A stretch of 51,158 bases of DNA from Planctomycetota bacterium (GTDB lineage: Bacteria; Planctomycetota; Planctomycetia; Pirellulales; PNKZ01). Where the stretch lies: contig JAFLCO010000006.1 of the NCBI GenBank assembly GCA_017303535.1, forward strand, positions 1 to 51,158. The letters run 5' to 3'. Made by a program: the position numbers and the translations under genes. Shown here piece after piece: positions 5,831 through 24,150 of this stretch. The stretch's first letter is position 1; each line of letters starts with the position of its first letter. The notes under the pieces are model-generated. The model was not told the DNA's origin, did not search any database, and saw only the letters and a program-made list of their open reading frames with translations.

Positions 5831-6799
5831 TCAGGCCGAAAAACTGCGTTCGAGCACTTCGCGATTGAGTGCGCCGTAGCGGAACGTCCGACCGGTATCG
5901 AGATTGTGAAACACGACGACGGCCGGGCTGAAGAGCAGCGGATCGATCTTGTAGAAGTCGCGCCCGTAGTTCTGAAACACTTGCGCGAAAGGCAGCCCGT
6001 AGTCGACGGAGCCGTTGCTTGGTACTCTTGGGCCGACCGCTTCCAAGCTGGCGTCGTCGCCACGCACCCAAAGCGTGACTTGGCCGCCGTAGAGAATCGC
6101 GTCGTTCGTCCAACCGACGGCCGCGAGATCGTCGGCGGCGATCGGCGGCAGCGGGGCCGTGCCGAACGCCGAAACCACGCGCGTGACGTCGAATTCCAAC
6201 TCATGCAACTTGTGAAGGGCCGTCTCCACGCTGCGGGCCACGACCTGCACGGTGCCGGCTTGCGACGACGTGGGGGCGACGAGAATCGTCACGTTCTCGG
6301 GCGGCACCCAACAGCTTTCGGCGATCTCCGTAATGATATCGCCCGGCGGCAGAGCCCGCGTTTCCAACACGCCGACGACCGACTTGGCCGTTTCGCGAAA
6401 GCTGAGCTTCTCGATGATGGGTTCTTTGCCGGCGGCCGCGCGCATCGGGCCGGAACCCATCGCGAAGAATTTGCCCTTCGCAAGTTGCCAGCCGGCGTAT
6501 TGCGAGCCGAGGCAGGCCCAACTCGGGTGATCGGTGCGAACGATGACGGTCGGCCAAGGTCCGACGGCTTCGACGGGCGGACCGAATTGCACGTGCCCCA
6601 GGCCCGCCAGACAAATCTCCGCGAGACGACGTCCGGCTTCTAAGCCCCCTTCGACGGAGACGCCGAAGTCGATGATCGTGGAACCTGCCGCGCCAACGTT
6701 CACGCCTAGGCGCAGGTCGTCGGCCTCGTAAACGACGCGATCCGCTAAAGCCGACGCTCGCCAATTGAGCGTCGACTTTCCATCTTCGACCGCATCCAT
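5831..6799 (-). CDS. mch: Methenyltetrahydromethanopterin cyclohydrolase
   Basis: The 322-residue protein matches Mch along its length, including GVNVGAAGSTIIDFGVSVEG, EAGRRLAEICLAGLG, WACLGSQYAGW, GSGPMRA, NDAILYGGQV and DFYKIDPLLFSPA. Mch interconverts N5,N10-methenyl- and N5-formyl-tetrahydromethanopterin, an archaeal-type C1 step also known from methylotrophs and planctomycetes. I chose the ATG at 6797-6799, one base beyond the megasynthase TAG (6801-6803); an in-frame upstream ATG at 6817 would overlap the megasynthase by 17 bases. The tight junction implies co-transcription with the megasynthase, which is unexpected for a central C1 gene. Confidence 0.93.
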   Translation of the reverse strand: MDAVEDGKSTLNWRASALADRVVYEADDLRLGVNVGAAGSTIIDFGVSVEGGLEAGRRLAEICLAGLGHVQFGPPVEAVGPWPTVIVRTDHPSWACLGSQYAGWQLAKGKFFAMGSGPMRAAAGKEPIIEKLSFRETAKSVVGVLETRALPPGDIITEIAESCWVPPENVTILVAPTSSQAGTVQVVARSVETALHKLHELEFDVTRVVSAFGTAPLPPIAADDLAAVGWTNDAILYGGQVTLWVRGDDASLEAVGPRVPSNGSVDYGLPFAQVFQNYGRDFYKIDPLLFSPAVVVFHNLDTGRTFRYGALNREVLERSFSA

Positions 6800-6800
6800 C

Positions 6801-9800
6801 CTAAGACGACTTTCCAAATTTTTCCCGGAAGCGTGCGATTGCGGCCTCGTCGATCAGGCGTCCGTCGCAATGCAACATTCCGGCATCGTACCGGATTTCC
6901 GTGAGCTTGTGGAAGTGCCGCAGGTTTTCTTCCAAGGTCGCAATGCCGATCGTGGCCGCAAGATCGGAATACTTTAACGTCAGGGCGCTGGACAGGATGC
7001 AGCCCGTTATGTGCTGCGGATGCCCCTGGGCCATCATCTTCACGGGGTCGGTATCCAGCAACTGCTTGACGAACGGCGAGACGAAGGCGGTTTGCGGAAT
7101 CGGTGCGGGCGCCATCAGCACGCCTCCTTCCGTAAACAGGATATCTCCCTGCTTGTCCAACCGTGCGAAGGCGTCTTCCGTGCGGAAGCAGTGCGGTGCG
7201 GAATCATCGATGATGATCGTGCCGGGCTGCAATTTGGCGATATCGAGCAAGTCGGTGACGTTCGTCGCTCCGACGATCACGCGCGATTGGTAGATTTCGG
7301 CGGGAGCCTCCTTGCGCGATTCGAGAATCGCCGCCGGCCCGCGGTAGTGCAAGCCGCTGCGAATTTCGGCGAGCAGAGTTTCGAGTTGGCTTCGCTTCGA
7401 GTAGATGTCGCAGAAGCTAAGCTGTTGCGGATGCGGCAAGGCGGAGAGCATCAATCGCAAGGTCGACGTGCCGATCGACCCGAGCCCGAGGAACGAAACT
7501 TGTTCTTCGGCCAAGTTGCGGCCTGCCAGGGCCAACGCGCGGCGAATCGTCATCACGACCGTCGCCGTGGTCGTCGCGTGACCGGTCGTGATCAGCGGCA
7601 AGTCCAATCCGCGGGCCGCATCGACAAGCGCTCGGCCATAGTCGAGGGCCGACGGCAGGAGCCCGGTGAGCGAAACGCACTTCGCTCTCATGTGCTTAGC
7701 GATACGGAGGGCGTCAATCGCTTCGGTGAGGACCTGCTCGCGATCTTCGTAGAGTTGGAAATCGAACCGCGGTAGCAGAATGGCGGCGATGCGACCTTCG
7801 GTCGTGTTGAGCGTCGAAGCGACCGCCGGAACCCCCTGCGTGCCGAGTTCGATGGCCATTTCCGGCGGCAGCCCGGTGTGGCGGAGCAAACTCGACGGCA
7901 GGTACGCGAGCGCCACGGCGTCGACCTGTTCGATCTTCCCGGAAGCGAACAACGTGAGCGGCGGACGCGTATCAATTTGAATATGCGAAAAATCGAGTTC
8001 GCCGGTCACTTCGTCGACTTCGATATGGTCGCTGTCGACGAGGAACTCGAAGTAGGTTTCCAATAATCGGTCGTCGACCGGCGCACATTGGATACCCTTC
8101 GACGCAAGCAGCGTTTCCGCATTGCGGGCGTCGAAGCGCGGCTGCGATACGGCGAACCGGAAATCTTCAGCACTCGGATCGCCGCCGTCGGCCGCGGCAA
8201 ACATGGCTCGCAGCGTTTCGAGTTCGGGCGTCGACACGAGTTTGGCGGCTTCGCTAAGGCGGCGATACCAGGCGTCGAACGGCAGGATGTTGAGCTTGGC
8301 GCCGCGGGCATTGATGAATTCGATCAAACGATCGAGCTTCGCCGGTTGCGGGTTCACGAGATGGAAGGTCTTGCCGACGGCCCGCGGGTCGATAGCCAGC
8401 GCCGCGATGGCTTGGCTGACGTAGTCGATCGGCGTCATGTCGACGGGATCGTCGAACTGCGGCACCGCGCCGAGCTTCATGCAGCCGGCGATCATCACGT
8501 GGAGGAAATCGCCGAGGTTGGCAGTTCCTTTCTCGCTATGACCGGTAATGCGGCCCGGGCGATAGACGGCGACGGGGAGCCCGCGCCGCCCGGCTTCTTG
8601 AATCAGGCGTTCGCAGACCCACTTCGAGCGATGGTAGCCGCCGAGCAAGTCTTCCGCCTTCGGCAGCGGCTCGGTCTCGAAGACTTCCGTCGAATGCATA
8701 TGGTCGCGCGAGTGCAGCACGGAGAACGTCGACACGAAATGGAGCGGCTTAGGCTTCGCGGTGCACGCAAAGCGAATGGCCTCTTTCGTGCCGCCGACGT
8801 TCACCTCGCGGAGCATTTCGTAGGGAAACACGAGATTGACGGACGCGCCGTTGTGAATAACGACGTCGACGCGGTCGGCCAAGTCGCGAAAACTCGCTTC
8901 GCTCAAGCCGAAGCGCGGTTTCTCCAAATCGCCGAGCACCGGGACGACGCGGCGGTCGAAATCCGGATGAGCGTGGCCGTAACGCGAGAAATTATCTTGG
9001 AGCTTTTTCAGGCCTTCGACGTCGCCTGCCGCGCGGACCAAGCAGTAGATCGTCGTTCCTTCCCGGCGAAGCAATTCCTGCAGCACGCTGGTGCCGAGGA
9101 AGCCGGTCCCGCCGGTGAGGAAGACACGGTCATGACGGGTGAGGTCGGCCGTCATTCCCGGCGGCGGGGTGATGTCGGCGTCGAGCACGGCTTCGGCTTC
9201 GAAATCAATGCCCTTGACGGCGGCGCCCGACGTTCGCAACGACGGATCGATTAGCACGCCGATCCCGGCGATCGTCGGCGATTCGAACAGGTTGCGCAGC
9301 GGCACTTCGACGCCGTATTTATTGCGCAGGTTCCAAGCCATCTGTGCGGCCAGGAGCGAGTGGCCGCCAAGTTCGAAGAAATTGTCTTCGACGCCGACCT
9401 GTTCGACGTTCAACACCTTTTTCCAAACTTCGACGAGTTCGGCTTCCAGCGTATTGCGCGGAGCGACATAGGCCGTCGACCGATCGCCGGCGTCGGGCTT
9501 CGGCAAGGCTTTGCGATCGATCTTGCCGTTGGGCGTGCGCGGAAGTTCGGCGAGGAACACGAACTGGGCCGGCACCATATATTCCGGCAGCTTGGTGCGG
9601 AGCGAGGCCTGAAGATCGGCGACCATCGGTTGCTCGCCGACGGGCACGACGTAGGCGACCAACTGCACGTCGCCGCCGCGATCGTACGTGTGGACCACGC
9701 ACACTTTCACGGCCGAGTGCTTGGCAAGCTGGGCTTCAATTTCGCCAAGTTCGATGCGGAAGCCGCGGACTTTCACCTGATGATCGACGCGGCCGAGGCA

Positions 9801-12800
9801 CTCGAGTCGGCCGTCGCGCAGATGCCGGGCGACGTCGCCGGTGCGGTACATGCGTGCGCCGATGACGTTGCGAAATTCGTCGCGTACGAAGCGTTCGGCC
9901 GTCAAATCTTCGCGGCCGCGATAGCCGCGGGCCACGCCGTCGCCGCCAATCCAGAGTTCGCCCGGCGTGCCCGGCGGGACCGGTTCGGAAAGATCGTCGA
10001 GAATGTAAATCTGCGTGTTATCGATCGGCCGACCGATGGAGATCGGGCCGTCGAGCGAGGTGATTTGCTCGGCGGTCGACCAGACCGTGGTTTCGGTCGG
10101 TCCGTAGACGTTCCACAGTTCGCGACAGTTGCCGAGCAACGCTTGCGCGAGATCGCGCGGCAATGCTTCGCCGCCGCAGAGAATCTTCACGCGCGAGTCG
10201 CCTTGCCAACCCGAGGCGCGAAGCAAGCGGAAGGTGGCGGGCGTGGCTTGAACGACTGAGACGCCGCGCTTCGAGATATTCTCGGCGAGCCAAGCGCCGT
10301 CGCCCGCTTGCGAGCGCGAGGCTAGGAGAATTTTGGCGCCGACGGTGAGCGGCAGGTACAGCTCCAGCACGCTGATGTCGAACGAGAGCGTCGTAATGGC
10401 GAGCATCACGTCGCAGGGTTTGATGCCCGGCGCCTTGGCCATCGACGACACAAAATTGACGACTGCCTGCTGCGGGATCTCCACGCCCTTGGGCATGCCG
10501 GTCGAACCGGATGTGTAGAGCACGTAGGCTAGGTTTTCGGCATGAGACGAGCGCGGCGGCGCGGATTCGGCATGCTGCGAGATCGCGGCCCAATCGTCGT
10601 CGAGCAGCACAGTGGTTCCGTGGAACTCCGGCAGAACTCCGCGAACGCTTTGCTGCGTGACTAGCACCTTGGCCTGCGAGCTCTCGAGCATGTAGGCCAA
10701 GCGATCGGCCGGGAAGTTCGGATCGAGCGGGACATACGCGCCGCCGGCCTTCCAAACGCCGAGCAACGTCGCCAACATTCGGGGAGTCCGCTCGGTGCTC
10801 ACCGCGACGAGCGACTCCGGCCCGACGCCCAAAGCTTGCAGATGGTGGGCGATGCGATTGGCCGCGCGGTCGAGTTCGCCGTAGGTCAGCGACTCCGCGT
10901 CCCCTTCGACGGCGACGGCATCCGGAGTACGAGAGGCTTGCTGCTCGAACAGATCGACGACGGTCGCCTCGCGCGGGTAATCGACGGCCGTGTTATTCCA
11001 CTCGACCGTGACACGGTGCAACTCTTCCGGCGACAGCACCGACAAGCGAGCTACGGCCTTTTCCGGATCGGCGACGATCGAATCGAGCAATGTCGCAAAC
11101 CGCTCGGCCATCAGCCGCACGGTTTCGCGATCGAAAAGATCCGTGTTGTACTGGAATTGGCAATTGATCGTGTCGCCGGCTTCCACGGCCGTGAGCAAAA
11201 CGTCGAACTGCGCGTCGTGCTGGTCGATCTCCAGGGCCTCGGCTTGAATGCCGCTGAAGGTCATCGCGCCGTCGCCTTGACCGGTCATAAACGACTGCAG
11301 GCCGCGATCCCCCTTCGATTGGGCGCGCTGCAGAATGAACATCGTCTGATAAATGGGCGTCCGGCTCGCATCCCGGGCCGGCGCGAGCTTCTCGACCAAC
11401 AGCGGCAGCGGGTAGTCCTGATGGTCGAACGCCCCGAGCGTCTTCTTGCGAATTTGCTCGAGGAACGCGTTGAACGATGGATTGCCCGAGAGGTCGCCGC
11501 GGATGACGACGGGGTTCACGAAATCGCCGACCAGCGTTTGGAATTCGCGTCGGCTACGGCCGGCCGTCGCGGTGCCGACGAGCATGTCGGTCTGCCGCGA
11601 ATGACGGTAGAGCCACACCTGATAAGCGGCCATGAGCGTCATGAACATCGTGGTCCGCCGGCCCTTGCTCAACTCGCGCAAGGCGTTCGTCGTGGCTGCC
11701 GAAATCGTGACGTACTCGAGATCGCCGCGGTAGGTTTGCACCGGCGGGCGGGGACGATCCGTCGGCAGGTCGAGCGCCGGAAGCGAGCCGGCGAGTTCAT
11801 TTTTCCAGTAGCCCCAAAGGCGGTCGCCCGATTTGCCGGAAACCGTTTCCGCTTGCCACTTCACAAAGTCGGCGTAGTCGGTCTTCAGTTCCGGCAGCGG
11901 CGACGGGGTGCCTTCGACTTCGCTCTTGTAGAGCGCCGTAAATTCGCCGACGCACACGAGCATCGACCACATATCGGAGACGATATGGTGCATCGCGAAC
12001 GTGAGGATGTGCTCGTCCGCCGACTTCTTGAACAGCAGCACGCGGAAGATCGGGCCGTTCTCCAAATCGAACGTGCGATGCACTTCTTGATAGAGAAGAT
12101 CGCGCCACTCTTGCTCGGCCATCGTGGAAATGTCGAGCACTTCGAAGGCGACCTCACCCCCTTCGTGCACCCGCTGCACGGCCCGTCCTTCCGACATGTG
12201 GAAGGTGACGCGGAGTTGCGGATGGCGATCGTACAACCGCTGCAGTGCTCGGCGGAGGGCGTCGTGATTGAGCGGGCCGCGGAAGCGGACGCTGTCGGCG
12301 ATGTTGTAGGCCGTGCTTTGCGGATCGAGCTGATAGACGAACCACATGGCCTGCTGGCCGTGCGACAGCGGGAACTCGCGCACCACGCGCGTCGTACGAC
12401 CGACGGATGCCGCAGCAACGACGGCAGGCGCGGCGCTTGGCAACAAGTCCGTCGGTGCGGCAGACGGTTCGCCGGCCGAAGCCGCAGCCGTCGGGCCGGG
12501 CTCGGTGACCGTGGCGAGCGGCGAAGTGACCGTCGGTTCGCTGGTCGGCGAATCGGAAACGCTGCCGGTCTCGGTCAGATCCCCCATCGCTTCCAGCGCG
12601 TAGCCGGCGAGTTGCGAGAGGCTCGGGCCTTCCAAGAACCGCGACATCGGAATCGTCACTTCCAAGCTCGATTCGATGACGTTCTTCAGCTCGATCACCA
12701 TCAGCGAGTCGAGACCGAGCGAGTTGAGCGGCTGCTGCGTGTCGATCTTTTCCGCGTCGAGTTCCATAACGCGAGCCAACTGCGCGCGGAAGTAAAGTTC

Positions 12801-15800
12801 CAACACGTCGTGGCGTTTGTCGGCGGGAGCGGCGAGGACATCGCTACGAAGTTTGTTCTCGCTCTTGGTTTCGCTCTTTTGCTTGCTGACAAGTTCACCG
12901 AGGAACGACGGCACCGGGCCGACAAACGTCGCGCCGAGTTTTGACCAATCGACGTCCATCACGCCGATGTTAACGGCCGACGATTCCATGAGCCGCTCGA
13001 GCGTCTGCATCGCCGGACCGGGCGGAAGCAGGCCCATGCCCATGGCCGTGAGCCGCGATTCGTCGGCGTTGCGCGCCGCCATGCCGCTCTCGGCCCACGG
13101 TCCCCAGTTAACGGAGAGCACGGGCAACTTGCGGCTTGCGCGATACTGGGCGACGCCGTCAAGAAACGCGTTGCCGGCGGCGTAGTTCCCTTGGCCGGGC
13201 GAACCCAGCAGCGCGGCGATCGATGAGAACAAGACGAAATGTTCGAGCGGCTGATTCAACGTGGCGCGGTGCAAGTTCCAAGTGCCCGCGACCTTCGGCG
13301 CAAGCACGCGGCGCATCTTGGCGCGGTCCATTTGCAGCAGCGCCGCGTCTTCGAGCAAGCCGGCCGCATGGAAGACGCCGCGCAGCGGCGGCGCGGAAGC
13401 GAGTGCATCGTTGAGGGCCCGCGTAACCTGGCCTTCGTCGGCGGCGTCGGCCTTGAGCAGTTGCACGCTCACGCCTTGGCCGCGAAGTTTCGCCAGCACG
13501 TCGATCGCCGGCCCCTTCGGTTCGCTGCGCCCCATGAGCATGAGGTGCCGCGCGCCGCGGCGAGCCAGCCACTGGGCCAACTCCAAACCCAGCGCGCCGA
13601 GGCCGCCGGTCACGAGGTACGAGCCGTCGCCGCGGATGAGTTCTTTCGCAGTCGTCGCCGTCGTATCGGCCGCCGACGTCTCCACGCCGCCGACCTTCAC
13701 GATCACCTTGCCCGTATTGCGGCGACCCTGCATGTAGCGATAAGCGCCGACGACTTCGTCGATCGGGAACACGGTCTTCGGCAGCGGTTGATAACGCTTG
13801 GCGGCGAACTCTTCGACCAGCGCCAGAAACATCTTCTGCACGACCACGGGCTTCTGCCGCAGCATCCGATCGAGATCGATCGCGAAATACGACAGGTTGT
13901 TGTGGAACGGATAGAGCCCGACCATGCGGTTCGAGTAGATGTCGGTCTTGCCGATTTCCAGGAACCGACCGTAAGCCCGTAGGCAGTTGAGGCTCGTCGG
14001 AATGGCTTCGCCCGGAAGCGAGTTGAGAACGACGTCGATTCCTTCGCCGCCGGTGACGTCCATGATCTGTTGGCCGAACGCCAAACTGCGCGAATCGAAG
14101 ACGTGCTTTACGCCGAGCGAGCGGAGGAATTCGCGCTTCGAGTCGCTGCCGGCCGTCGCGAAGACCTCGGCGCCGTATCGTTGGCAAATCTGCACGGCAG
14201 CCAGCCCGACGCCGCCGGCGCCGGCGTGAACCAGCACGCGTTCGCCGGGTTGGATCCGCGCAAGCTCGACGAGGCCGTAGTAGGCCGTGAGGAACGCGAT
14301 CGGAACCGTCGCCCCTTCTTCGTCGGTCAGATGAGCGGGCTTCGGCACGACGGCCCGCACGTTCGTCATCGCGTGCGATGCGAAGCAGAACGGCGCGATG
14401 CCGAGCACTTCGTCGCCGGGCTTGAATTGCGTGACGTTGGAGCCGACCGCCGCCACGCGACCGGCGCATTCGATGCCCATCGGCACGACGCCGCCGCTCA
14501 GGCCGGGGTACAAGCCCATGACCTTGAGTACGTCGGAGAAATTAAGTCCGGTGGCTCCGACTTCGATTTCGACTTCGTCCGGGCCGGGGGCCGTGCGTTG
14601 GAAAGTACGGAGTTGCAGCCGGTCGAGATTGCCGGTGGACGTGAACTCGACGCGGAACGGCTCGCCGCGCGGCACGGAGAGTTTGCTGCCCTTTTTCGTT
14701 TCGGCGGCAACCGGCGTCGCCTCTGTTTTCATATGCCGCAAACGCGGCAAGTAGCGACGACAGGCACGGAAGGCGACTTGCTGTTCCGCCTGCTTCGCAC
14801 CGACTTCAGCCAGCAACAAACCGACGTTCGCATCGACGGCAGCGGCATCCGAAACCGACGGATCGAGATCGACGAGCGTCGCCGTAAATTCCGGCGTTTC
14901 CATCGACACGACACGACCCAAGCCCCAGGTCGCCGCTTGAGCGACGCTTACCGAATCCGTGCCAGGTCGTGATCCATCGACCGTCACGCTCTGCCCACCA
15001 CGCGTTACGAGAAACATTCGTGGCTGTTCGGCCCAGCGAATCTTGCCGGCCGCCTGCACGAGGTCGAGCACGCGTTCCGCGGCCAACGTCTGAGCGCGGG
15101 ACATTGCAGGGCCGTCGAGGTTGTCGCTCACCGCGGCATCGAGCGGCCAGAGATACAGAATGCCCCGGCATTGCGGACGGTCGCCCGGGAACCGCTCGGC
15201 AATGACCTTACGCAGGGCTTCGGCGTCGTCGCCGGCGACCATGTCGGGAGTGATGACGACCGGCTTTTGACTGAGCAGCGTGAGCCGCTCGGCGAGGCGC
15301 GAGCCGACGCCCTGCGAATCGGCGAAAACGAGCCAATCACCGCCGCGAACCTGAATATTCTTAACGGCCTCGGTTGCCGGCATCGGCAGCTCGGCCGCAA
15401 GCCAGCCGGTTTCGTAGAGCCAATCGGCGGAGCGGTCCGCTTCCTCGGCGCGGCGACCGACCTTGCGCAGCTTGAGCCCTCGCACTTCGAGGATCGGCTC
15501 CTCGTCGGCCGTCATCAGGACGACGTCCCCTTCGAGGTTCTCGTGGCGCGGATCGTCGACGCCTGCGGTCAGCCGCGCGTAGCCGTAAAGCTTCGTCGTC
15601 GGCTTGCGGAACACGCGGATACTTTCGGCGCCCATCGGCAAGTAGCTCTCGCCGCTGTTGGCAGGAGCCCAAGCGTCGGGCACCGCCGCGCCGACGACAT
15701 GGAAGCAGCCATCGAGAATCGCCGGATGAACCTGATAGGCCTCGAGACCGGCGCGAATTTGCTCCGGCACTTCCAACTCGGCGACCGATTCGCCTTGAAC

Positions 15801-18800
15801 GCGCCAAACCTGCCGGAGCGTCTGGAAGCTCGGGCCGTAGTCGAGCGAGCGAGCCTTGTAGCGACGGTAGCATTCCGCTTGGTCGAGAATCTCGCCGACC
15901 TTGGCCAACTCCGGCGCAATCTGCATCACCGGCTTCGGGGCGGCAAAGGAAGGGCCGTCTTTCGGCGAAGCGCGGCGAATTGTACCGCCGGCGTGCAACA
16001 TCCACCCGGCGTTGGGATCTGCGCCCGGCGGAAGCTGAAACACCTGGTACGAAGCGTGCCCCGCGACTTCCGGCGAAACGACGACCTGCAGCGCGTGGGC
16101 CTTCGTTTCATTAAGGAACAGCGCCTGTTGAAAGCCGACCTTTTCGACGACATGGGCCCCGTCGCCGAAGAGCGTGTTGGCCGCTTCGAGGCCGAGTTCC
16201 AAGTAGGCGGCGCCGGGAACGACGAGCGAACCCTGCACGACGTGGTCGCGCAAGTACGGCAATCGCTTGACGCTCAACTCGCTAAGGAATTGCGTCATCG
16301 CCACGGCCGACGGAACGCGATTCCCCAAGATCGGCTGCTTGCTGTCGACCCCCTTGGGCGCGAACACAGCGACCGAGCCGGCCTCCGCTTTTTCAACAGG
16401 CTCACCGTCCTTGTCGCCATCCATCCAGAAGCGGCTGCGTTCGAACGGGTACGTCGGCAAGAACACGCGCGAACGGCGGTAGTCGCGATCGAAGCCGCGC
16501 CAGTCGATATTCACGCCGCGAACATGCAGTGAAGCGAGCGCGCCGAGGATCGTTTTCCAATCGTCCTGACCGCGGCGTAGCGACGACAGCCAAAGGCCCT
16601 TGTTGTCGGGCAGGCACTTGCGCCCCATGCCGGTGAGGATCGGCGCGGGCCCAACTTCGATAAAGATTTCGCAGCCGGTTTCGGCCATCGCGCGGACGCC
16701 GCTCGCGAACCGCACACAACCGCGCACATGGTTGCGCCAGTAGCGGGCGTTGGGCTTGTCACCCTCGGCAAAGGCCTTACCCGTGACGTTCGAGATCATC
16801 GCGACTTGCGGCACGTGGTAAACGATACCCTGCGCGAAGCGTTCGAAACCGTCGAGCATCGGATCGAGATGCGCCGAGTGGAACGCGTGCGAGACGGTGA
16901 GTTGCTGGCACATCACGCCGTCGGATTGGAAACGCGTCATCACTTCGTGGACCGCGTCTTCGTCGCCCGAGATGACGATCTGTTCGGGGGCGTTGACGGC
17001 CGCGACAGAGAGCCGATCGCCGTAGGGCTCGATGGCTTCGAGCACGCGATCTTCCGTCGTGATTACGGCAGCCATCGTGCCGCGCGAGGGCAACGATTGA
17101 ATGCGACGGCCGCGTTCGGCGATGAGTTTGAGGCCGTCTTCCAGCGACATCACGCCCGCAATCACGGCCGCCGGGAATTCGCCGACGCTATGCCCCATGA
17201 CGACGTCGGGCCGCAAGCCCCACGATTCCCAGAGTCGGGCCGTTGCGTATTCGATCGAGAACAGAGCCGGCTGCGTGTACGCCGTTTGGTCGATCGTCGA
17301 AGGCTCGACCGCCACGTCGTACAGAACCGAGGTCAACGGGCGCTGCAAGAGCGGACGCAGGATTTGGTCGCAGTCGTCGAGCGCGCGGCGGAAGACAGGC
17401 TGTGTTTCGTAGAGCCCTCGGCCCATGCCGACGTATTGCGAACCTTGGCCGGTGAAAAGGTAGCCGACCTTCGGACGAACGCCGCGGCGAGCCGTACCGA
17501 TCGCCGCCCCGGCGAGCTTGCCCGTATCGGCGAATTGCCGCAGTTGCTCGGCGAGCTTCGCCGACGACTCGGCAACGACGGCCAGCCGTTCGCTCAGATG
17601 CGAGCGACCGACGGCCAAGGTGTGGCTGACGTCGGTAATCGGCAGTTCCGGATGTCGCGCGAGATGCTCGGCGTGCGTGCCGGCGAGCGACTTCAAAGCG
17701 TCGGCGCTATGCGCCGATAGAACCGCAAGTTGCGTCGGTCGCTCGAATTGCGGCTTCGCATCGGCAGGTCGCGCCGGCCAGGCTTCAACGATCGCGTGCG
17801 CGTTGGTCCCGCCGAAGCCGAAACCGCTGATGCCGGCGATGCGCGGACGGTCGCCGGTTTCCCACGGCGTGAGTTCCGTGGGAATCCGCAGGTTTAGGCC
17901 GATCGAGGCGATGTTCGGATTCAGTTCGCGGAAGTTGCGCTGCGGCGGAATCTGCGCGTGCTGCATCATGAGCAGCACTTTGATCAGGCTGGCCGCGCCG
18001 GAGGCGGTTTCCAGGTGGCCGATGTTGCCTTTGACCGAGGCCATATAGCAGGGCGGAGCATCCGCGCCGCGCGTACCGAGCACGCCGTTGAGCGCCGAAA
18101 CTTCAATCGGGTCGCCGAGCGGCGTGCCGGTGCCATGCGCTTCGACGTACGACACTTGCTCCGGCTTCACGCGGGCCTGCGCCAGCGCTTTGCGAACGCA
18201 TTCCATCTGCGACGGGCCGTTGGGCGCCGTCATGCCCGAGGTCTTACCGTCTTGGTTACAGGCCGTGGCGCGGATGACGCCGAGGATCGTATCGCCGTCG
18301 GCGATGGCGTCGCTCAAGCGCTTCAACAGCACCACGCCGCAACCTTCGCCGCGCACATAGCCGTTGGCACTCGCATCAAACGGCTTGCAGCGGCCGTCAG
18401 GCGAGAGCATCCGAGCCTTCGAGAAGGCGACCGTCGTCTCGGGCGAGAGAATGACGTTGACGCCCCCCATGAGCGACATGTCGCAATCGCGATTGCGCAG
18501 GCTTTGCACGGCGTAGTGCAGCGCCACGAGCGCCGACGAACAGGCGGTGTCGACCGAAAGGCTCGGGCCGTGGAAATCGAAGATGTACGAGATGCGGTTA
18601 GCCGCGATGCTCAGCGCGTTTCCGGTGCCGCAATAGGCGTCGATGTGCTGCAGGTAGTTATCGAGGCTCCGGTACATTTGCATGTAGTCGGTGCCGCCGA
18701 TGCCGACGAAGACGCCAGTCTTGGTGCCTGCCGCACGTTCCGGCGAGAGACCGGCGTGCTCCAGCGCTTCCCAGGTACATTCCAAGAGGAGCCGCTGCTG

Positions 18801-21800
18801 CGGATCCATGCGAGCCGCTTCACGGGGCGTGATGCCGAAGGCCCGGGGATCGAATTGGTCGATGTCGTCGAGAAAACCGCCGCGGCGCGTGACGATCTTG
18901 CCCGGCGCGTCGACGTTGGCGTCGTAGAACTCGTCGACGTTCCAACGGTCCGCCGGAATCTCGCGGACTCCTTCGCGGCCTTCGGAAATGAGCTTCCAAT
19001 ATTCGTCGAGATTCTTCGCGCCGGGGAAACGGCAGCCCATGCCGATGACGGCGATCGGCTCGGCTTCGAGCGTGCGCTCGAATTCGACCTCTTCCACGGC
19101 GCCGTCGGAATCCGTGGCCAGATACTTCGCGAGAGCTTCCGTCGTCGGGTAGTCCCACGCCAAGGTCGGCTGCAACGAACGGCCCAGATAGTCTTCGAGG
19201 TCGCCGATCAGGCTGACCATCTGCACGGAATCAAGACCGTAGCTCGTGAACGGCTGACGAACGTCGAAATCGGAGGGCAAAATCTTAAGCTTCGCCGAAA
19301 GCTCTTCGGCTAACCAACGTTCAATCTCTTCCGACGAACGCCGGATAAGCTTCGAACCTTTGCGAAGCATCGAATCGCGATTGGTGACGACTTCCGACTC
19401 TTCATCTTCGAAGTCGTCGTCCTGCACGATCGCCGCGGCATCCGGATTGAGCACCTTTTGCAACGACAGCTGCAAGAGATCCACGTAGCCGTTCTGCACG
19501 CTGCGGAGTGTGGCATCGAAATAGCGTTGATACTTTTCGAAGACCTCGTGGCCGTACTTCCGCGTGATCAGGTCTTTGTTATTGCGGAGGTTCGTGAGCC
19601 AGGCTTCGAGCGTCTTCTGATAGTCGGCACCGGTCGAGCGCCACTCGGCGACTTCGTACAACCCCTTCGAAGCCTCGAGAATTTCATCCTGAAACGGCAG
19701 CGACGAGCCGGGGAACATCTTGGCGATAAACGCCATGTCGGCTTGCGTTTGAATCGTGTCGGCCCGCTTGACGGCGACGACCGTTTGGATGCCGAGGAAC
19801 GCGGTGTCGGAACTGATCTCGTAGCACTTCTGAATAAAGCGGCGATAGACTTCCTTGTGCTTTCCTTGCGCGCGGAGCGCCAGCGGTACGATGTGTTCCA
19901 ACGCGTCGATGCAGACGACGGCGTCGACCTTTTTCTCCGGCTGGAATTCGCGCCAGGAGGCAAGCCGCACCTGGGCCTTATTCGAAGCGCGGCGGCCCGC
20001 GAAGTCGTACTGCGTGCGGCTTGTCGTGAGGCCGGTGACGCGACCGATGTTCAGTTTCTCCGCGGCGAAGCGGAGCATGCCGCCCCAGCCGCAACCGACA
20101 TCGACGACATGGTCGCCTCGCTCGATGCGGGCCAACTGCGACATGCGGCGGAGCTTGTTTTCCTGGGCTTGCTGCAGGTTTTCGGCCCGATCCCACATGC
20201 CTGCGCTGTCGGCCAGATACTCGCCGTCGAAGATCAAACGGAAGAAACCTTCGTCGAGTTCCGTTTCTTGGGCGACGCTCGCCGAGCGCTGACCGCCGAC
20301 GAAGCGCGCCGGTTGCGCGAGTTCGGGCTTCGCGGCGGCTTCCGGCTTGGCAGGCATGGCCGTACCGTTGGTGCCGTGATCGCCGTTGACGTGAACATGT
20401 TCGCCGTTCTTGGTCGACGCAGGCGCGGCCGTTGCGGCGGCAGGAGGCGGGGTAAACTCGTCGGCTTCGTCTTCTTTCGTGTTGATGGCCGCGCCGTATT
20501 TGTACGCCGCCATCACGCCGGTGAGTTTACCTTCGAGGTACAGGGCTTTCGTCGCGCGGCGCTGGATCTTGCCGCTGGACGTCTTCGGAATCTGCCCCGG
20601 CTTCAAGAGCACGATCGAATCGAGCATCAGCTCGTGATCGGCCGACACCGCATCGCGCATCTTTTTGAAAACGCCTTCCGCGTCTTCCAGATGCCGCACG
20701 TTCATTTCGTGAACGATGACCAGCTTTTCCGTGTCGTCTTGTTCGATGGAAAACGCCGCGCCGCTGCCGAGCGCGAGAGTGGCTTCCGCTTTCTGAACCG
20801 AGTGTTCGATATCCTGCGGGTAGTGGTTGCTGCCGCGGATGATGATCAGGTCTTTGATTCGGCCGGTGACGAACAATTCACCGTCGAAGAAGAACCCCAG
20901 GTCGCCGGTTCGCAAGAACGGGCCGTCGCCGTCGGGCAGGTAAGCGCCAAAGGTATCGCGAGTTGCGTCGGCCATCTTCCAGTAGCCCGCCGCGACGCTG
21001 GGGCCTTGGACCCACACCTCGCCGATCGCATCCGGTGCCGAGAGTTGCTGCGATTCGGGATCAACGATGACCACCCGCTGTCCGCCGGCCACGGCGCCGT
21101 TGCCGACGAGCGGTCGCGCATCGGGCGCATCGTTCGGGACCGGGACGACGCGGTGCTGTTCGAGCGCCGTCGCTTCGAAGCTCACATGAACCGGCGGGCG
21201 ATCAGGCCGGCCGCCGGTGACCATGAGCGTCGATTCGGCAAGGCCGTAGCATGGATAGAACGCCTCGCGTTTGAAGCCACAAGGACCAAACGCCGCAGTG
21301 AAGCGTTCGAGCGTTTCATGCCGCACCGGCTCGGCGCCGCAGAACGCCACTTCCCAACAGCTCAAATCGAGCGTAGCCCGTTGCTCGGGCGAAATGCGGT
21401 CGACGCACAAGTCGTACGCAAAGTTCGGCCCGCCGCTGACGGTCGCCCGGTACTTTGAGATGGCGTTGAGCCAGCGCATGGGCCGCTGAATGAAGGCGAC
21501 CGGCGTCATCACCACGGCCGTACTGTCGGCATAGATCGGCTGAATAATGCCGCCGATCAGGCCCATGTCGTGGTACGGCGGCAGCCAAATCACGCCGCTG
21601 GAGTGCGGGCCGTTGCCGAAGAATTGCTTGATCGCTTCGGAGTTGTGCAGCAGGTTGCGGTGCGTGACCATCACGCCTTTTGGCGCCTGGGTCGAGCCCG
21701 AGGTGTACTGCAAGAACGAGAGCGACTCGGAGTTGATTTCCGGCTTTACCCAGGCTTGTTCGATGCCGGGCTCCAGATTGTCGGTCGCCATCCATTGCAG

Positions 21801-22235
21801 CGAGAGCAATTCGGGCACGCCGGCCAAACGCTTGGTGACGTCGGACAAAATCCGCCGTGTCGTCAGCACGAGCGAAGGCTTGGCGTCGGCGACGATCGAG
21901 AGCAGACGCGAAGTCAGCCGATTCATCCGCGGCAAGTAAGCCGGCACGGCGATGACGCCCGCGTACAAACAACCGAAAAACGCCGTGATGTACTCCAGGC
22001 CCGGCGGATAGATGAGAATCGCGCGATCGCCGGCGTTTTGCGAACGCTGCAGCCACGCGGCGATGGCGCGGGCTTGGCGGTCGAGTTCCGCGTATGTCAG
22101 GTTGATTTCATCGGTTTCGCCGTCGGCCAAAAAACGAAACGGCGCATGGTCGGCCCGTTCCGCAGTGCGGCGTTGCAGCAGATCGACGAACGTCTCAATA
22201 TCCACAGGTGCCGATTCCAATGGCGGCTGTGCCAT
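6801..22235 (-). CDS. Hybrid FAAL-PKS-NRPS megasynthase with thioester reductase and acyl-ACP-reductase-like terminus
   Basis: This is a single 5144-residue polypeptide. Order by residue: FAAL (10-575), linker rich in Ala/Pro, cyclopropane-synthase-like methyltransferase (655-930), ACP (Ser1003), KS (Cys1232), AT (Ser1683), DH (His1998, Asp2175), structural KR half (2290-2510), ER (2530-2850), KR (Tyr3018), ACP (Ser3177), C (His3416-3417, Asp3421), A (3755-4245), PCP (Ser4293), thioester reductase (Tyr4534), and an acyl-ACP-reductase-like domain (4745-5144). All key residues I looked for are present up to the reductase. Inferred logic: a free fatty acid is activated and loaded, possibly methylated or cyclopropanated, extended once by malonate with full reduction, amidated with a glycine-like amino acid and released reductively. 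The start at 22235 is preceded by an AGAAGG ribosome site. It is the first gene of a minus-strand operon and diverges from a PQQ-propeller gene 626 bases away. Confidence 0.95.
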   Translation of the reverse strand: MAQPPLESAPVDIETFVDLLQRRTAERADHAPFRFLADGETDEINLTYAELDRQARAIAAWLQRSQNAGDRAILIYPPGLEYITAFFGCLYAGVIAVPAYLPRMNRLTSRLLSIVADAKPSLVLTTRRILSDVTKRLAGVPELLSLQWMATDNLEPGIEQAWVKPEINSESLSFLQYTSGSTQAPKGVMVTHRNLLHNSEAIKQFFGNGPHSSGVIWLPPYHDMGLIGGIIQPIYADSTAVVMTPVAFIQRPMRWLNAISKYRATVSGGPNFAYDLCVDRISPEQRATLDLSCWEVAFCGAEPVRHETLERFTAAFGPCGFKREAFYPCYGLAESTLMVTGGRPDRPPVHVSFEATALEQHRVVPVPNDAPDARPLVGNGAVAGGQRVVIVDPESQQLSAPDAIGEVWVQGPSVAAGYWKMADATRDTFGAYLPDGDGPFLRTGDLGFFFDGELFVTGRIKDLIIIRGSNHYPQDIEHSVQKAEATLALGSGAAFSIEQDDTEKLVIVHEMNVRHLEDAEGVFKKMRDAVSADHELMLDSIVLLKPGQIPKTSSGKIQRRATKALYLEGKLTGVMAAYKYGAAINTKEDEADEFTPPPAAATAAPASTKNGEHVHVNGDHGTNGTAMPAKPEAAAKPELAQPARFVGGQRSASVAQETELDEGFFRLIFDGEYLADSAGMWDRAENLQQAQENKLRRMSQLARIERGDHVVDVGCGWGGMLRFAAEKLNIGRVTGLTTSRTQYDFAGRRASNKAQVRLASWREFQPEKKVDAVVCIDALEHIVPLALRAQGKHKEVYRRFIQKCYEISSDTAFLGIQTVVAVKRADTIQTQADMAFIAKMFPGSSLPFQDEILEASKGLYEVAEWRSTGADYQKTLEAWLTNLRNNKDLITRKYGHEVFEKYQRYFDATLRSVQNGYVDLLQLSLQKVLNPDAAAIVQDDDFEDEESEVVTNRDSMLRKGSKLIRRSSEEIERWLAEELSAKLKILPSDFDVRQPFTSYGLDSVQMVSLIGDLEDYLGRSLQPTLAWDYPTTEALAKYLATDSDGAVEEVEFERTLEAEPIAVIGMGCRFPGAKNLDEYWKLISEGREGVREIPADRWNVDEFYDANVDAPGKIVTRRGGFLDDIDQFDPRAFGITPREAARMDPQQRLLLECTWEALEHAGLSPERAAGTKTGVFVGIGGTDYMQMYRSLDNYLQHIDAYCGTGNALSIAANRISYIFDFHGPSLSVDTACSSALVALHYAVQSLRNRDCDMSLMGGVNVILSPETTVAFSKARMLSPDGRCKPFDASANGYVRGEGCGVVLLKRLSDAIADGDTILGVIRATACNQDGKTSGMTAPNGPSQMECVRKALAQARVKPEQVSYVEAHGTGTPLGDPIEVSALNGVLGTRGADAPPCYMASVKGNIGHLETASGAASLIKVLLMMQHAQIPPQRNFRELNPNIASIGLNLRIPTELTPWETGDRPRIAGISGFGFGGTNAHAIVEAWPARPADAKPQFERPTQLAVLSAHSADALKSLAGTHAEHLARHPELPITDVSHTLAVGRSHLSERLAVVAESSAKLAEQLRQFADTGKLAGAAIGTARRGVRPKVGYLFTGQGSQYVGMGRGLYETQPVFRRALDDCDQILRPLLQRPLTSVLYDVAVEPSTIDQTAYTQPALFSIEYATARLWESWGLRPDVVMGHSVGEFPAAVIAGVMSLEDGLKLIAERGRRIQSLPSRGTMAAVITTEDRVLEAIEPYGDRLSVAAVNAPEQIVISGDEDAVHEVMTRFQSDGVMCQQLTVSHAFHSAHLDPMLDGFERFAQGIVYHVPQVAMISNVTGKAFAEGDKPNARYWRNHVRGCVRFASGVRAMAETGCEIFIEVGPAPILTGMGRKCLPDNKGLWLSSLRRGQDDWKTILGALASLHVRGVNIDWRGFDRDYRRSRVFLPTYPFERSRFWMDGDKDGEPVEKAEAGSVAVFAPKGVDSKQPILGNRVPSAVAMTQFLSELSVKRLPYLRDHVVQGSLVVPGAAYLELGLEAANTLFGDGAHVVEKVGFQQALFLNETKAHALQVVVSPEVAGHASYQVFQLPPGADPNAGWMLHAGGTIRRASPKDGPSFAAPKPVMQIAPELAKVGEILDQAECYRRYKARSLDYGPSFQTLRQVWRVQGESVAELEVPEQIRAGLEAYQVHPAILDGCFHVVGAAVPDAWAPANSGESYLPMGAESIRVFRKPTTKLYGYARLTAGVDDPRHENLEGDVVLMTADEEPILEVRGLKLRKVGRRAEEADRSADWLYETGWLAAELPMPATEAVKNIQVRGGDWLVFADSQGVGSRLAERLTLLSQKPVVITPDMVAGDDAEALRKVIAERFPGDRPQCRGILYLWPLDAAVSDNLDGPAMSRAQTLAAERVLDLVQAAGKIRWAEQPRMFLVTRGGQSVTVDGSRPGTDSVSVAQAATWGLGRVVSMETPEFTATLVDLDPSVSDAAAVDANVGLLLAEVGAKQAEQQVAFRACRRYLPRLRHMKTEATPVAAETKKGSKLSVPRGEPFRVEFTSTGNLDRLQLRTFQRTAPGPDEVEIEVGATGLNFSDVLKVMGLYPGLSGGVVPMGIECAGRVAAVGSNVTQFKPGDEVLGIAPFCFASHAMTNVRAVVPKPAHLTDEEGATVPIAFLTAYYGLVELARIQPGERVLVHAGAGGVGLAAVQICQRYGAEVFATAGSDSKREFLRSLGVKHVFDSRSLAFGQQIMDVTGGEGIDVVLNSLPGEAIPTSLNCLRAYGRFLEIGKTDIYSNRMVGLYPFHNNLSYFAIDLDRMLRQKPVVVQKMFLALVEEFAAKRYQPLPKTVFPIDEVVGAYRYMQGRRNTGKVIVKVGGVETSAADTTATTAKELIRGDGSYLVTGGLGALGLELAQWLARRGARHLMLMGRSEPKGPAIDVLAKLRGQGVSVQLLKADAADEGQVTRALNDALASAPPLRGVFHAAGLLEDAALLQMDRAKMRRVLAPKVAGTWNLHRATLNQPLEHFVLFSSIAALLGSPGQGNYAAGNAFLDGVAQYRASRKLPVLSVNWGPWAESGMAARNADESRLTAMGMGLLPPGPAMQTLERLMESSAVNIGVMDVDWSKLGATFVGPVPSFLGELVSKQKSETKSENKLRSDVLAAPADKRHDVLELYFRAQLARVMELDAEKIDTQQPLNSLGLDSLMVIELKNVIESSLEVTIPMSRFLEGPSLSQLAGYALEAMGDLTETGSVSDSPTSEPTVTSPLATVTEPGPTAAASAGEPSAAPTDLLPSAAPAVVAAASVGRTTRVVREFPLSHGQQAMWFVYQLDPQSTAYNIADSVRFRGPLNHDALRRALQRLYDRHPQLRVTFHMSEGRAVQRVHEGGEVAFEVLDISTMAEQEWRDLLYQEVHRTFDLENGPIFRVLLFKKSADEHILTFAMHHIVSDMWSMLVCVGEFTALYKSEVEGTPSPLPELKTDYADFVKWQAETVSGKSGDRLWGYWKNELAGSLPALDLPTDRPRPPVQTYRGDLEYVTISAATTNALRELSKGRRTTMFMTLMAAYQVWLYRHSRQTDMLVGTATAGRSRREFQTLVGDFVNPVVIRGDLSGNPSFNAFLEQIRKKTLGAFDHQDYPLPLLVEKLAPARDASRTPIYQTMFILQRAQSKGDRGLQSFMTGQGDGAMTFSGIQAEALEIDQHDAQFDVLLTAVEAGDTINCQFQYNTDLFDRETVRLMAERFATLLDSIVADPEKAVARLSVLSPEELHRVTVEWNNTAVDYPREATVVDLFEQQASRTPDAVAVEGDAESLTYGELDRAANRIAHHLQALGVGPESLVAVSTERTPRMLATLLGVWKAGGAYVPLDPNFPADRLAYMLESSQAKVLVTQQSVRGVLPEFHGTTVLLDDDWAAISQHAESAPPRSSHAENLAYVLYTSGSTGMPKGVEIPQQAVVNFVSSMAKAPGIKPCDVMLAITTLSFDISVLELYLPLTVGAKILLASRSQAGDGAWLAENISKRGVSVVQATPATFRLLRASGWQGDSRVKILCGGEALPRDLAQALLGNCRELWNVYGPTETTVWSTAEQITSLDGPISIGRPIDNTQIYILDDLSEPVPPGTPGELWIGGDGVARGYRGREDLTAERFVRDEFRNVIGARMYRTGDVARHLRDGRLECLGRVDHQVKVRGFRIELGEIEAQLAKHSAVKVCVVHTYDRGGDVQLVAYVVPVGEQPMVADLQASLRTKLPEYMVPAQFVFLAELPRTPNGKIDRKALPKPDAGDRSTAYVAPRNTLEAELVEVWKKVLNVEQVGVEDNFFELGGHSLLAAQMAWNLRNKYGVEVPLRNLFESPTIAGIGVLIDPSLRTSGAAVKGIDFEAEAVLDADITPPPGMTADLTRHDRVFLTGGTGFLGTSVLQELLRREGTTIYCLVRAAGDVEGLKKLQDNFSRYGHAHPDFDRRVVPVLGDLEKPRFGLSEASFRDLADRVDVVIHNGASVNLVFPYEMLREVNVGGTKEAIRFACTAKPKPLHFVSTFSVLHSRDHMHSTEVFETEPLPKAEDLLGGYHRSKWVCERLIQEAGRRGLPVAVYRPGRITGHSEKGTANLGDFLHVMIAGCMKLGAVPQFDDPVDMTPIDYVSQAIAALAIDPRAVGKTFHLVNPQPAKLDRLIEFINARGAKLNILPFDAWYRRLSEAAKLVSTPELETLRAMFAAADGGDPSAEDFRFAVSQPRFDARNAETLLASKGIQCAPVDDRLLETYFEFLVDSDHIEVDEVTGELDFSHIQIDTRPPLTLFASGKIEQVDAVALAYLPSSLLRHTGLPPEMAIELGTQGVPAVASTLNTTEGRIAAILLPRFDFQLYEDREQVLTEAIDALRIAKHMRAKCVSLTGLLPSALDYGRALVDAARGLDLPLITTGHATTTATVVMTIRRALALAGRNLAEEQVSFLGLGSIGTSTLRLMLSALPHPQQLSFCDIYSKRSQLETLLAEIRSGLHYRGPAAILESRKEAPAEIYQSRVIVGATNVTDLLDIAKLQPGTIIIDDSAPHCFRTEDAFARLDKQGDILFTEGGVLMAPAPIPQTAFVSPFVKQLLDTDPVKMMAQGHPQHITGCILSSALTLKYSDLAATIGIATLEENLRHFHKLTEIRYDAGMLHCDGRLIDEAAIARFREKFGKSS
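6804..8003 (-). other. Megasynthase C-terminal domain: long-chain acyl-ACP-reductase-like
   Basis: Residues about 4745-5144. The pattern follows cyanobacterial acyl-ACP reductase: a helical segment with SLTGLLPSALDYG, then ITTGHATTTATVV, a Rossmann loop FLGLGSIGTSTLRLML, SRVIVGATNV, TIIIDDSAPH and FTEGGVLMAP. The cysteine that forms the acyl-enzyme intermediate in cyanobacterial enzymes (after the GGV block) is not seen at the equivalent place. I infer a nucleotide-binding reductase or dehydrogenase-like role of unknown substrate. Confidence 0.65.
8031..9143 (-). other. Megasynthase domain: thioester reductase
   Basis: Residues about 4365-4735. An extended SDR with VFLTGGTGFLGTSVLQELL, serine/threonine in HFVSTFSV and Tyr4534-Lys in GGYHRSKW. 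Such R domains release the carrier-bound acyl chain as an aldehyde (two-electron) or alcohol (four-electron) using NAD(P)H. Confidence 0.92.
9246..9473 (-). other. Megasynthase domain: peptidyl carrier protein
   Basis: Residues about 4255-4330, with the phosphopantetheine site Ser4293 in FFELGGHSLLAAQM. Confidence 0.95.
9501..10973 (-). other. Megasynthase domain: NRPS adenylation, glycine-like code
   Basis: Residues about 3755-4245. Core motifs YTSGSTGMPKG, NVYGPTETTVW, YRTGD and NGKIDRKAL are present. Reading the ten specificity positions by motif alignment (SFDISVLELY, VVQATPATF, ILCGGEAL, NVYGPTETTVW, final Lys) gives D-I-L-Q-L-G-V-V-W-K, close to the known glycine code DILQLGLIWK. The substrate prediction is from memory of published codes. 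Confidence 0.85.
11061..12383 (-). other. Megasynthase domain: NRPS condensation
   Basis: Residues about 3285-3725. It opens with FPLSHGQQAMWFVYQL; the catalytic HHxxxD motif is MHHIVSDMW (His3416-His3417, Asp3421); VGDFVNPVVIRGD is the later latch motif. It would join the polyketide acyl chain to the amino acid on the PCP. Confidence 0.93.
12591..12818 (-). other. Megasynthase domain: ACP 2
   Basis: Residues about 3140-3215, with Ser3177 in LGLDSLMVIELKN. A Pro/Ala/Ser/Thr-rich linker (about 3215-3280) separates it from the condensation domain. Confidence 0.92.
13041..13643 (-). other. Megasynthase domain: ketoreductase
   Basis: Residues about 2865-3065. NADPH motif YLVTGGLGALGLELA, catalytic Ser in LFSSIAALLGSPG, Tyr3018 and Asn in GQGNYAAGNAFLDG. 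The LED tripeptide after HAAGL retains the Asp of the LDD motif seen in B-type ketoreductases. Confidence 0.9.
13686..14648 (-). other. Megasynthase domain: enoyl reductase
   Basis: Residues about 2530-2850, preceded by a catalytically empty KR structural half (about 2290-2510). The MDR-type NADPH site reads VLVHAGAGGVGLAAVQI near residue 2670, and the domain ends with RRNTGKVIVKV. Confidence 0.92.
15456..16343 (-). other. Megasynthase domain: dehydratase
   Basis: Residues about 1965-2260. The double hot-dog motifs are intact: His1998 in DHVVQGSLVVPG (HxxxGxxxxP) and Asp2175 in HPAILDGCFH (DxxxH), with LDYGPSFQ between them. Confidence 0.88.
16566..17468 (-). other. Megasynthase domain: acyltransferase, malonyl-type
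   Basis: Residues about 1590-1890. It starts with FTGQGSQYVGMG; the active Ser1683 is in GHSVGEF. The specificity motif is HAFH (in SHAFHSAHLDPM), which by family rule indicates malonyl-CoA rather than methylmalonyl-CoA. Confidence 0.92.
17781..19064 (-). other. Megasynthase domain: ketosynthase
   Basis: Residues about 1058-1485. Cys1232 in VDTACSSALVAL, histidines in VEAHGTGTPLGD and KGNIGHLETASG. A complete type I PKS ketosynthase. Confidence 0.95.
19116..19350 (-). other. Megasynthase domain: ACP 1
   Basis: Residues about 962-1040, with the phosphopantetheine site Ser1003 in YGLDSVQM. It receives the FAAL-activated acyl chain. Confidence 0.92.
19446..20273 (-). other. Megasynthase domain: cyclopropane-fatty-acid-synthase-like methyltransferase
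   Basis: Residues about 655-930. The SAM-binding motif VVDVGCGWGGMLRFAAEK begins at residue 710 and is followed by VTGLTTSRTQYDFA and CIDALEHI. This is the CFA synthase/mycolic methyltransferase class, which adds a methyl or methylene group to an acyl double bond. It sits between the FAAL and the first ACP, so the loaded fatty acyl chain is the likely substrate (inference). Confidence 0.85.
20511..22208 (-). other. Megasynthase domain: fatty acyl-AMP ligase
   Basis: Residues about 10-575. The adenylation P-loop reads QYTSGSTQAPKGVMVTH (near residue 177), followed by WLPPYHDMGLIGG and YGLAEST, then KTSSGKIQRRATK near the end. The HDMGLIGG block and overall pattern are those of fatty acyl-AMP ligases that load a free fatty acid onto a downstream ACP without CoA. 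Confidence 0.9.
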
Positions 22236-22861: not shown

Positions 22862-24145
22862 ATGGCGCGTACCTTCCGCACCCGACTTTTCGGCTTTTCT
22901 TTGGGGCTTCTGATCGCCGCCGGTGCTGTTGAACGGCTTCAGGCCGAGAATTGGCCACAATGGCGCGGGCCGCGAAACGACGGTGTCAGCAGCGAAACCG
23001 GCCTGCCGACCACGTGGAGCGCCACGGAAAACGTTCTCTGGAAACTACCGCTTCCCGGGCCCGCCGGCGCGACGCCGGTCGTTTGGGAAGACCGCATCTT
23101 TCTCACCTCGGCCAAAGGGCAAGACCTGGTCCTGATCTGTGCCGACACCTCAGGCAAGCTGCTCTGGGAGCGCAAGCTCGGCACAGGCGATGAGACGGTC
23201 CGCGGCGACGAAGGGAACTCGGCCAGCCCCAGTCCTTCGACCGACGGCAAGCACGTGTGGGCCATGCTCAGCACAGGCGAACTGGCCTGCTACGACTTCG
23301 ACGGCAACGAAGTCTGGAAGTTCAACATGCAGGAGCGGTACGGCAAGTTCAGCATTCAATTCGGCATGACCTCGACGCCGGTGCTCGACGGCGATCGACT
23401 CTATATCCAACTGCTGCACACGAATTACTACCTGCTCGCGGCCGTCGATAAGGCGACCGGCAAAGACATCTGGAAGCATGAACGACGGAGCGACGCCAAG
23501 GCGGAGTGCGAACATTCGTACGCCTCGCCGATCGTCTATCGTGACGCGCAGCATGAGTTTCTCTTGTCGCACGGTTGCGATTACGTGACCGCGCACAACT
23601 TAAACGACGGCTCGGAAATCTTTCGCGCCGGCGGTTTGAATCCCGAAGGGAAGTACAACATGACGCTGCGATTGGTCGCCTCGCCGGTCGTCGCCGAGGG
23701 GCTGATCGTCGTTCCCTCCGCGAAAAACGGCCCCGTGTTGGGCTTGAGCCTCGATGCCAAAGGGGACATCACCAAAAGCAGTGAAGGTCACGTTTGGCGG
23801 CGTGAAGAAAACACGCCCGACGTGCCGAGCCCGCTGGTTCACGATGGCTTGGTGTATCTCTGTCGGGAGAACGGCATCCTTATCTGCCTCGATGCCAAGA
23901 CCGGCGAAGAGCAGTACATGGAACGGACCCACTCGCAGCGGCATCGGGCCTCGCCCGTTTATGCCGACGGCAAGATCTATCTGACGGCCCGCGACGGCAT
24001 GGTGACGGTTGTGAAAGCCGGACGAAAGTTCGAAGTCCTGGCCTCGAACGATACGGGCGAAGCGATTTCGGCGTCGCCCGTTATTTCCAACGGGCGCATT
24101 TATCTGCGGACGTACGATTCGCTGATTGCGATTGGGAAGAAGTGA
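22862..24145 (+). CDS. Secreted PQQ-like beta-propeller repeat protein
   Basis: The 427-residue protein begins with an Arg-containing N-region and a hydrophobic stretch (residues about 11-24) typical of a signal peptide with cleavage near VERLQA-EN. The mature protein starts NWPQWRGPRNDGVSSETGLP, the usual opening of planctomycete PQQ-binding-like propellers. Repeating blade motifs follow (for example LLWERKLG, DIWKHERR, ATGKDIW, DAKTGEEQYMERT). These propellers act outside the cytoplasm, often in sugar or alcohol oxidation or as protein scaffolds; no catalytic dehydrogenase residues are assigned here. The next gene, also secreted, starts 55 bases later and may be co-transcribed. Confidence 0.88.
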   Translation: MARTFRTRLFGFSLGLLIAAGAVERLQAENWPQWRGPRNDGVSSETGLPTTWSATENVLWKLPLPGPAGATPVVWEDRIFLTSAKGQDLVLICADTSGKLLWERKLGTGDETVRGDEGNSASPSPSTDGKHVWAMLSTGELACYDFDGNEVWKFNMQERYGKFSIQFGMTSTPVLDGDRLYIQLLHTNYYLLAAVDKATGKDIWKHERRSDAKAECEHSYASPIVYRDAQHEFLLSHGCDYVTAHNLNDGSEIFRAGGLNPEGKYNMTLRLVASPVVAEGLIVVPSAKNGPVLGLSLDAKGDITKSSEGHVWRREENTPDVPSPLVHDGLVYLCRENGILICLDAKTGEEQYMERTHSQRHRASPVYADGKIYLTARDGMVTVVKAGRKFEVLASNDTGEAISASPVISNGRIYLRTYDSLIAIGKK

Positions 24146-24150
24146 TTCTT

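Follow-up and report, generated by a model that had tools for sequence, protein, structure and literature searches.

The window, by which we mean the whole 51,158-nucleotide stretch of DNA analysed, carries one very large gene on its minus strand. Read from position 22235 down to position 6801, it comprises 5,144 codons free of stops, and the plus strand across 6801-22235 contains abundant stops. The earlier note had placed a single gene within these limits, which proved to be correct. Profile searches (Pfam and NCBIfam) and comparison with relatives identify the 5,144-residue product as a megasynthase with the domain order FAAL - CMAS-like methyltransferase (MT) - ACP - KS-AT-DH-ER-KR-ACP - C-A-PCP - TR - TAD, in which the TAD was recognized by PDB sequence match. 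The Pfam series runs FAAL/AMP-binding, CMAS, PP-binding, KS, AT, DH, ADH/ER, KR, PP-binding, Condensation, AMP-binding, PP-binding and NAD_binding_4, and so recovers the order from the FAAL through the TR; the C-terminal TAD, the fourteenth domain, lies outside every Pfam model. The earlier note had counted fifteen domains with intact active sites and had let the order end in the reductase, thus omitting the TAD. The count is fourteen, and all the motifs that we checked are present, namely the AMP-binding core, the SAM motif, the Ser motifs of the three carriers, the C-H-H residues of the KS, GHSVG and HAFH of the AT, HxxxGxxxxP of the DH, the NAD(P) motifs of the ER and KR, HHxxxD of the C domain, and the Thr and YxxxK of the TR.

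The same protein is encoded in two other genomes of the genus, G002 and G003, in versions of 5,129 and 5,180 residues with a per-domain identity of 62-93%. A comparison of the window with G003 and G002 by the NG86 method gave dN/dS values of 0.03-0.30 in all domains, the highest being those of the TR (0.20 and 0.30), and 0.17-0.21 in the TAD. Every domain is under purifying selection. Because two same-genus genomes carry full versions and all domains show such low dN/dS ratios, the megasynthase is neither a chance reading frame nor a misassembly. The possibility that the PKS-NRPS is a fusion artefact, raised in the earlier note as a misassembly of two genes, was ruled out by the concordance of three genomes of the genus. 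In a further genome, G006, the gene is merely divided over two contigs. The domain order, the intact motifs, the conservation and the selection are all read directly from the sequences.

The N-terminal FAAL (residues 14-572, positions 20520-22196) was assigned by NCBIfam FAAL models, which score 300-466 bits, under their strict equivalog cut-offs, and by PDB matches. The best of these are the FAAL structures 7r7e (E = 2e-181), 3kxw, FadD23 and FadD32, and the top 15 matches, some of them under older depositor names, are all of the FAAL type (E = 1e-73 to 1e-181). In the same PDB search, CoA ligases match at only about 1e-22, which places the domain, as judged by sequence, nearer to fatty acyl-AMP ligases than to acyl-CoA ligases. 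The CMAS-like SAM-dependent MT follows (residues 653-923, 19467-20279; PF02353, E = 7e-45, 154 bits versus a cut-off of 27) and contains the SAM motif GCGWGG. Its nearest solved structures are UmaA, CmaA2 and CmaA1. At the bicarbonate site, with residue roles as in CmaA1 and CFA synthase, the Glu-His pair and the Tyr are retained, but a His of the site has become Gln and a Cys close by Ala. The product of this domain would be a methyl branch or a cyclopropane, as the earlier note had suggested, and because of these two replacements the sequence does not decide between them. The first carrier, ACP1 (residues 973-1039, 19119-19319; PF00550), has its Ser in the motif GLDSV.

The subsequent domains form a complete, fully reducing type I PKS module with all its catalytic motifs. 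It consists of a KS with a C-terminal extension (residues 1059-1544, 17604-19061), an AT (1592-1909, 16509-17462) whose HAFH motif we take to be of the malonyl type, a DH (1968-2265, 15441-16334), an ER (2530-2850, 13686-14648), a KR (2871-3049, 13089-13625) and ACP2 (3145-3216, 12588-12803), ACP2 being assigned by Pfam and the others by Pfam together with motifs.

The NRPS module is composed of a condensation domain (residues 3287-3738, 11022-12377), an adenylation domain (3763-4238, 9522-10949) and a PCP (4266-4325, 9261-9440), all three with Pfam matches. The ten-position code of the A domain, read by motif rather than by a trained predictor, is DILQLGVVWK, one or two positions off the glycine code DILQLGLIWK, and the domain is predicted to activate glycine. 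Its motifs are present in all five relatives, save one position in G002 missed by the pattern. The thioester reductase (TR; residues 4371-4736, 8028-9125) matches NAD_binding_4 and scores 340 bits with TIGR01746 (cut-off 213). Its closest PDB match is the TR of MxaA (E = 2e-87), and its Thr and YxxxK motifs are intact in four proteins. Loading by a FAAL, a single fully reducing malonyl module, a putative glycine NRPS module and a TR had all been proposed in the earlier note, and the profiles, motifs and PDB matches support each of them.

What that note missed is the domain of about 400 residues behind the TR (residues 4746-5144, 6804-8000), which has no Pfam match at all but aligns with chains 9e4s and 9e4x of the PDB (E about 1e-93). 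Entries of the 9e4s series are titled 'TAD from Carmabin Biosynthetic Pathway' and name NAD, NADH and a Cys2238-dephospho-CoA disulfide; we take TAD to stand for terminal amidation domain. The window TAD is far nearer to the carmabin TAD than to any other solved structure, and no AAR chain appears among the sequence matches listed. An alignment of ten TADs shows a GLGSxG-type NAD motif (GLGSIG in the window) and a single Cys in the motif DDSxPHCF (Cys5016 in DDSAPHCF), both common to all ten. By its position, Cys5016 is probably the counterpart of Cys2238. In a fold comparison, acyl-ACP reductase (the 6jzq group) shares the fold of the TAD; the name 'plain acyl-ACP reductase' was nevertheless rejected for this domain in view of its PDB matches by sequence and by fold. 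Modelling of the TAD with AlphaFold gave a poor structure (pLDDT 49.8, from three sequences), and hence the assignment rests on sequence: similarity, NAD motif and conserved Cys together mark the domain as carmabin-type. By analogy, we propose that it releases a primary amide. The domain that ends the hectoramide and vatiamide lines has been called a putative terminal amidation domain, with its mechanism and enzymology described as unstudied, and for these two lines and that of carmabin, offloading by terminal amidation has been proposed (PMC10949194). A paper describing the 9e4s-series structures was not found in the open-licence PMC literature.

In the architectures that we examined, the other TADs of the phylum sit directly behind a PCP or ACP as the sole release domain, as in G108 (KS-AT-KR-ACP-TAD) and in G361 and G407 (A-PCP-C-A-PCP-TAD), all of which are without a TR. 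In the window, the TR stands between the PCP and the TAD, so that the carrier is not directly followed by the TAD, and among the TAD architectures examined this TR-TAD tandem was met in the genus of the window alone. NRPS/PKS proteins of the phylum that carry a terminal TAD directly after a carrier lie at L034, L035, L036 and L037, of which L037 has a partial TAD after a C domain. Outside the phylum, a Streptomyces megasynthase likewise terminates in a TAD, and a stand-alone TAD-like protein, annotated as 'hypothetical', is encoded in a PKS/NRPS operon of the Pantoea stewartii plasmid pCN101 (L038, 14869-16158).

The megasynthase gene stands first in a conserved planctomycete operon, the remainder of which, also on the minus strand, is mch-mptN-like-oleC-oleD-KS-ACP-FAD. 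The mch gene (5831-6799; TIGR03120, 387.5 bits versus a cut-off of 228.8) encodes methenyl-H4MPT cyclohydrolase (Mch) and starts 1 nt past the megasynthase stop codon (TAGGATG); the same 1-nt gap is found in G003 and G002. It is followed by genes for an MptN-like RimK-type ATP-grasp protein (4905-5807; NF040720, 236 bits, under the cut-off of 350), an OleC-like AMP-forming ligase (3190-4908; above the cut-off of NF006754, with OleC models at 499-542 bits, under their cut-offs) and an OleD-like reductase of the 3-beta-HSD family (2198-3199; NF042422, 376 bits, under the cut-off of 580). Profile matches identify the last three as a FabF-like ketoacyl synthase (801-2045), an acyl carrier protein (429-689) and an FAD oxidoreductase of the phytoene-desaturase type that is truncated by the contig end (1-356). 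Since other families have the block from mch to the FAD gene but lack the megasynthase (L073, L074, L078), the megasynthase most likely joined the head of a pre-existing operon. In G001 (L022/L023, G001:C34:34659-49955) and G006 (L024, G006:C363:1-4683), the TR reads in frame into Mch. Each of these genomes, the latter 75% complete, has one copy of Mch, and the fused copy is the only mch found. The genome of the window also encodes Fae, as expected for H4MPT-linked formaldehyde oxidation. Upstream of the megasynthase, at 22862-25445 on the plus strand, lie divergent PQQ/BamB-like and FG-GAP genes, which are kept alongside it in G001, G002 and G003.

The full domain order is found in G003 and G002 of the same genus (g1), whereas G001, a fourth member of the genus, has the same order minus the TAD, as does G006 (genus g4) over its two contigs. 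A close CMAS domain occurs in 5 of the 297 genomes of the order, exclusively in these five, which belong to genera g1 and g4. No FAAL-CMAS fusion was detected outside the two genera among the 297 genomes, and none was found among the plasmid records listed. In G005, from the same family (G005:C44, L025 11105-19765, minus strand), a 2,886-residue FAAL-ACP-KS-AT-DH-ER-KR-ACP protein precedes a separate TR-like gene of 440 residues. Its KS and ER are 63% and 65% identical to those of the window, but it has no CMAS domain, NRPS module or TAD. It is plausible that the G005 line represents a simpler form to which the CMAS domain and the NRPS module were added later. The trees either set the window, G002 and G003 apart from G001 and G006 or leave the latter two unplaced. 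They are midpoint-drawn and do not root the gain or loss of the TAD. Between the window and G002, the TR is 62.5% identical versus 81.7% for the A domain, and between G001 and G006 the corresponding values are 66% and 78%. On these figures, the TR has diverged a little more rapidly in the clade with the TAD, a weak hint at a partly relieved TR.

Together, these features are best read as a single-polypeptide lipo-amino-acid assembly line in which the TAD provides the main release route and the aldehyde or alcohol is a parallel or ancestral product, a reading to which we assign a probability of roughly 0.55. The FAAL would adenylate a free fatty acid and transfer the acyl group from the acyl-AMP to ACP1, where the CMAS-fold domain would modify the bound chain, with a methyl branch or a cyclopropane as the presumed outcome. 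The KS-AT-DH-ER-KR module would then add one fully reduced malonyl unit, and C-A-PCP would couple glycine to the acyl chain, giving N-acylglycyl-S-PCP. Two offloading domains in tandem would await this intermediate. The TR, the release domain common to the sister lineages, would yield an N-acyl-glycinal or, after four electrons, an N-acylethanolamine. The TAD behind it would yield a primary amide, N-acylglycinamide. Because a carmabin-type TAD sits behind the TR in this lineage, the amide is the most likely main product, at about even odds. The chain length, the methylation chemistry, the single round of extension and the dominant release domain are all parts of this scheme that we infer.

The earlier note predicted reductive release. 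Its TR holds, but because a TAD is encoded as well, reduction is only one of two exits, and N-acylglycinamide is at least as likely a product. If release were nevertheless reductive only, the product would be the N-acyl-glycinal or N-acylethanolamine and the TAD would either act as a further NAD(P)H reductase or have no activity. The intact catalytic motifs of the TR agree with this, as does its occurrence without a TAD in G001 and G006, where the TR alone must suffice, and a domain with the fold of acyl-ACP reductase could reduce rather than amidate. However, the TAD is conserved under purifying selection in three genomes, retains the family-wide Cys and NAD motif and is far closer in sequence to the carmabin TAD (E = 1e-93) than to other solved structures. 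Exclusively reductive release is a serious but clearly less probable alternative to amidation by the TAD.

A coupling of the two domains, in which the TR supplies an aldehyde and the TAD then uses ammonia and NAD+ to convert the hemiaminal or imine to an amide (or amine), would account for a tandem unseen in the other TAD architectures examined and would make use of the NAD/NADH bound by the carmabin TAD. Yet TADs of the carmabin/vatiamide type are reported behind a PCP with no mention of a TR (PMC10949194), so that a TAD should not need an aldehyde, and we regard this coupling as improbable. Any release chemistry would be compatible with a functional tie of the megasynthase to H4MPT one-carbon metabolism, to which the in-frame TR-Mch fusions in two genera, the 1-nt spacing of mch from the megasynthase gene in the window and the single-copy status of Mch all point. 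On the other hand, the mch-to-FAD block exists in other families without the megasynthase, and the association may be a mere landing site; we would give such a tie little weight. Also improbable is a line whose two tandem offloading domains, a reductase and a terminal amidase, choose between N-acyl-glycinal/ethanolamide and N-acylglycinamide, while in sister lineages the sole Mch of the cell has been captured as the C-terminal domain, which would link C1 metabolism with lipid synthesis in a single chain.

The locus would offer a short, single-gene and testable route to N-acylglycinamides or N-acylethanolamines, kin of animal signalling lipids, in a bacterial group with a scarcely studied chemistry, the planctomycetes. 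With two offloading domains behind a single carrier, the way in which terminal amidation domains release their products can be tested directly. Also of note is the odd capture, in the sister genomes, of a single-copy C1 enzyme in frame by a megasynthase of 5,100 residues, which is relevant to planctomycete C1 metabolism.

The individual parts of the line are known, but searches of the collections and of the open-licence PMC literature yielded neither its full order nor the tandem of TR and TAD. The NRPS ends of the carmabin, vatiamide and hectoramide lines of Moorena are alike in having a TAD behind a PCP, about 40% identical in structure-based alignments and with the same Cys and NAD motif. 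Their products, however, are multi-residue lipopeptides, whereas the window joins a lipid starter to a single PKS module and a single Gly module and has a TR ahead of its TAD; in the open-licence PMC literature, those lines were not found to be reported with a TR at that point. In FAAL-loaded PKS/NRPS lines of the puwainaphycin, jamaicamide and desmamide types, the FAAL likewise puts a fatty acid on an ACP for extension, but the window differs from them in the CMAS-fold methyltransferase between the FAAL and ACP1. The words 'cyclopropan', 'reductase' and 'planctomycet' are absent from a 2025 review of FAALs (PMC11837247). A cluster on plasmid 2 of Polaromonas sp. JS666 (L070 9840-20522), with genes for a FAAL, desaturase, ACP, CMAS, desaturase and PKS, follows the same FAAL + CMAS + ACP + PKS logic, and its CMAS shares the His-to-Gln change with the window MT. 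Its genes are separate, however, and include desaturases, and no NRPS, TR or TAD is annotated within the stretch shown. Finally, MxcG of the myxochelin pathway and MxaA have a similar PCP-TR end with intact reductase motifs, but in the window the TR precedes a TAD and in the sister genomes it precedes Mch.
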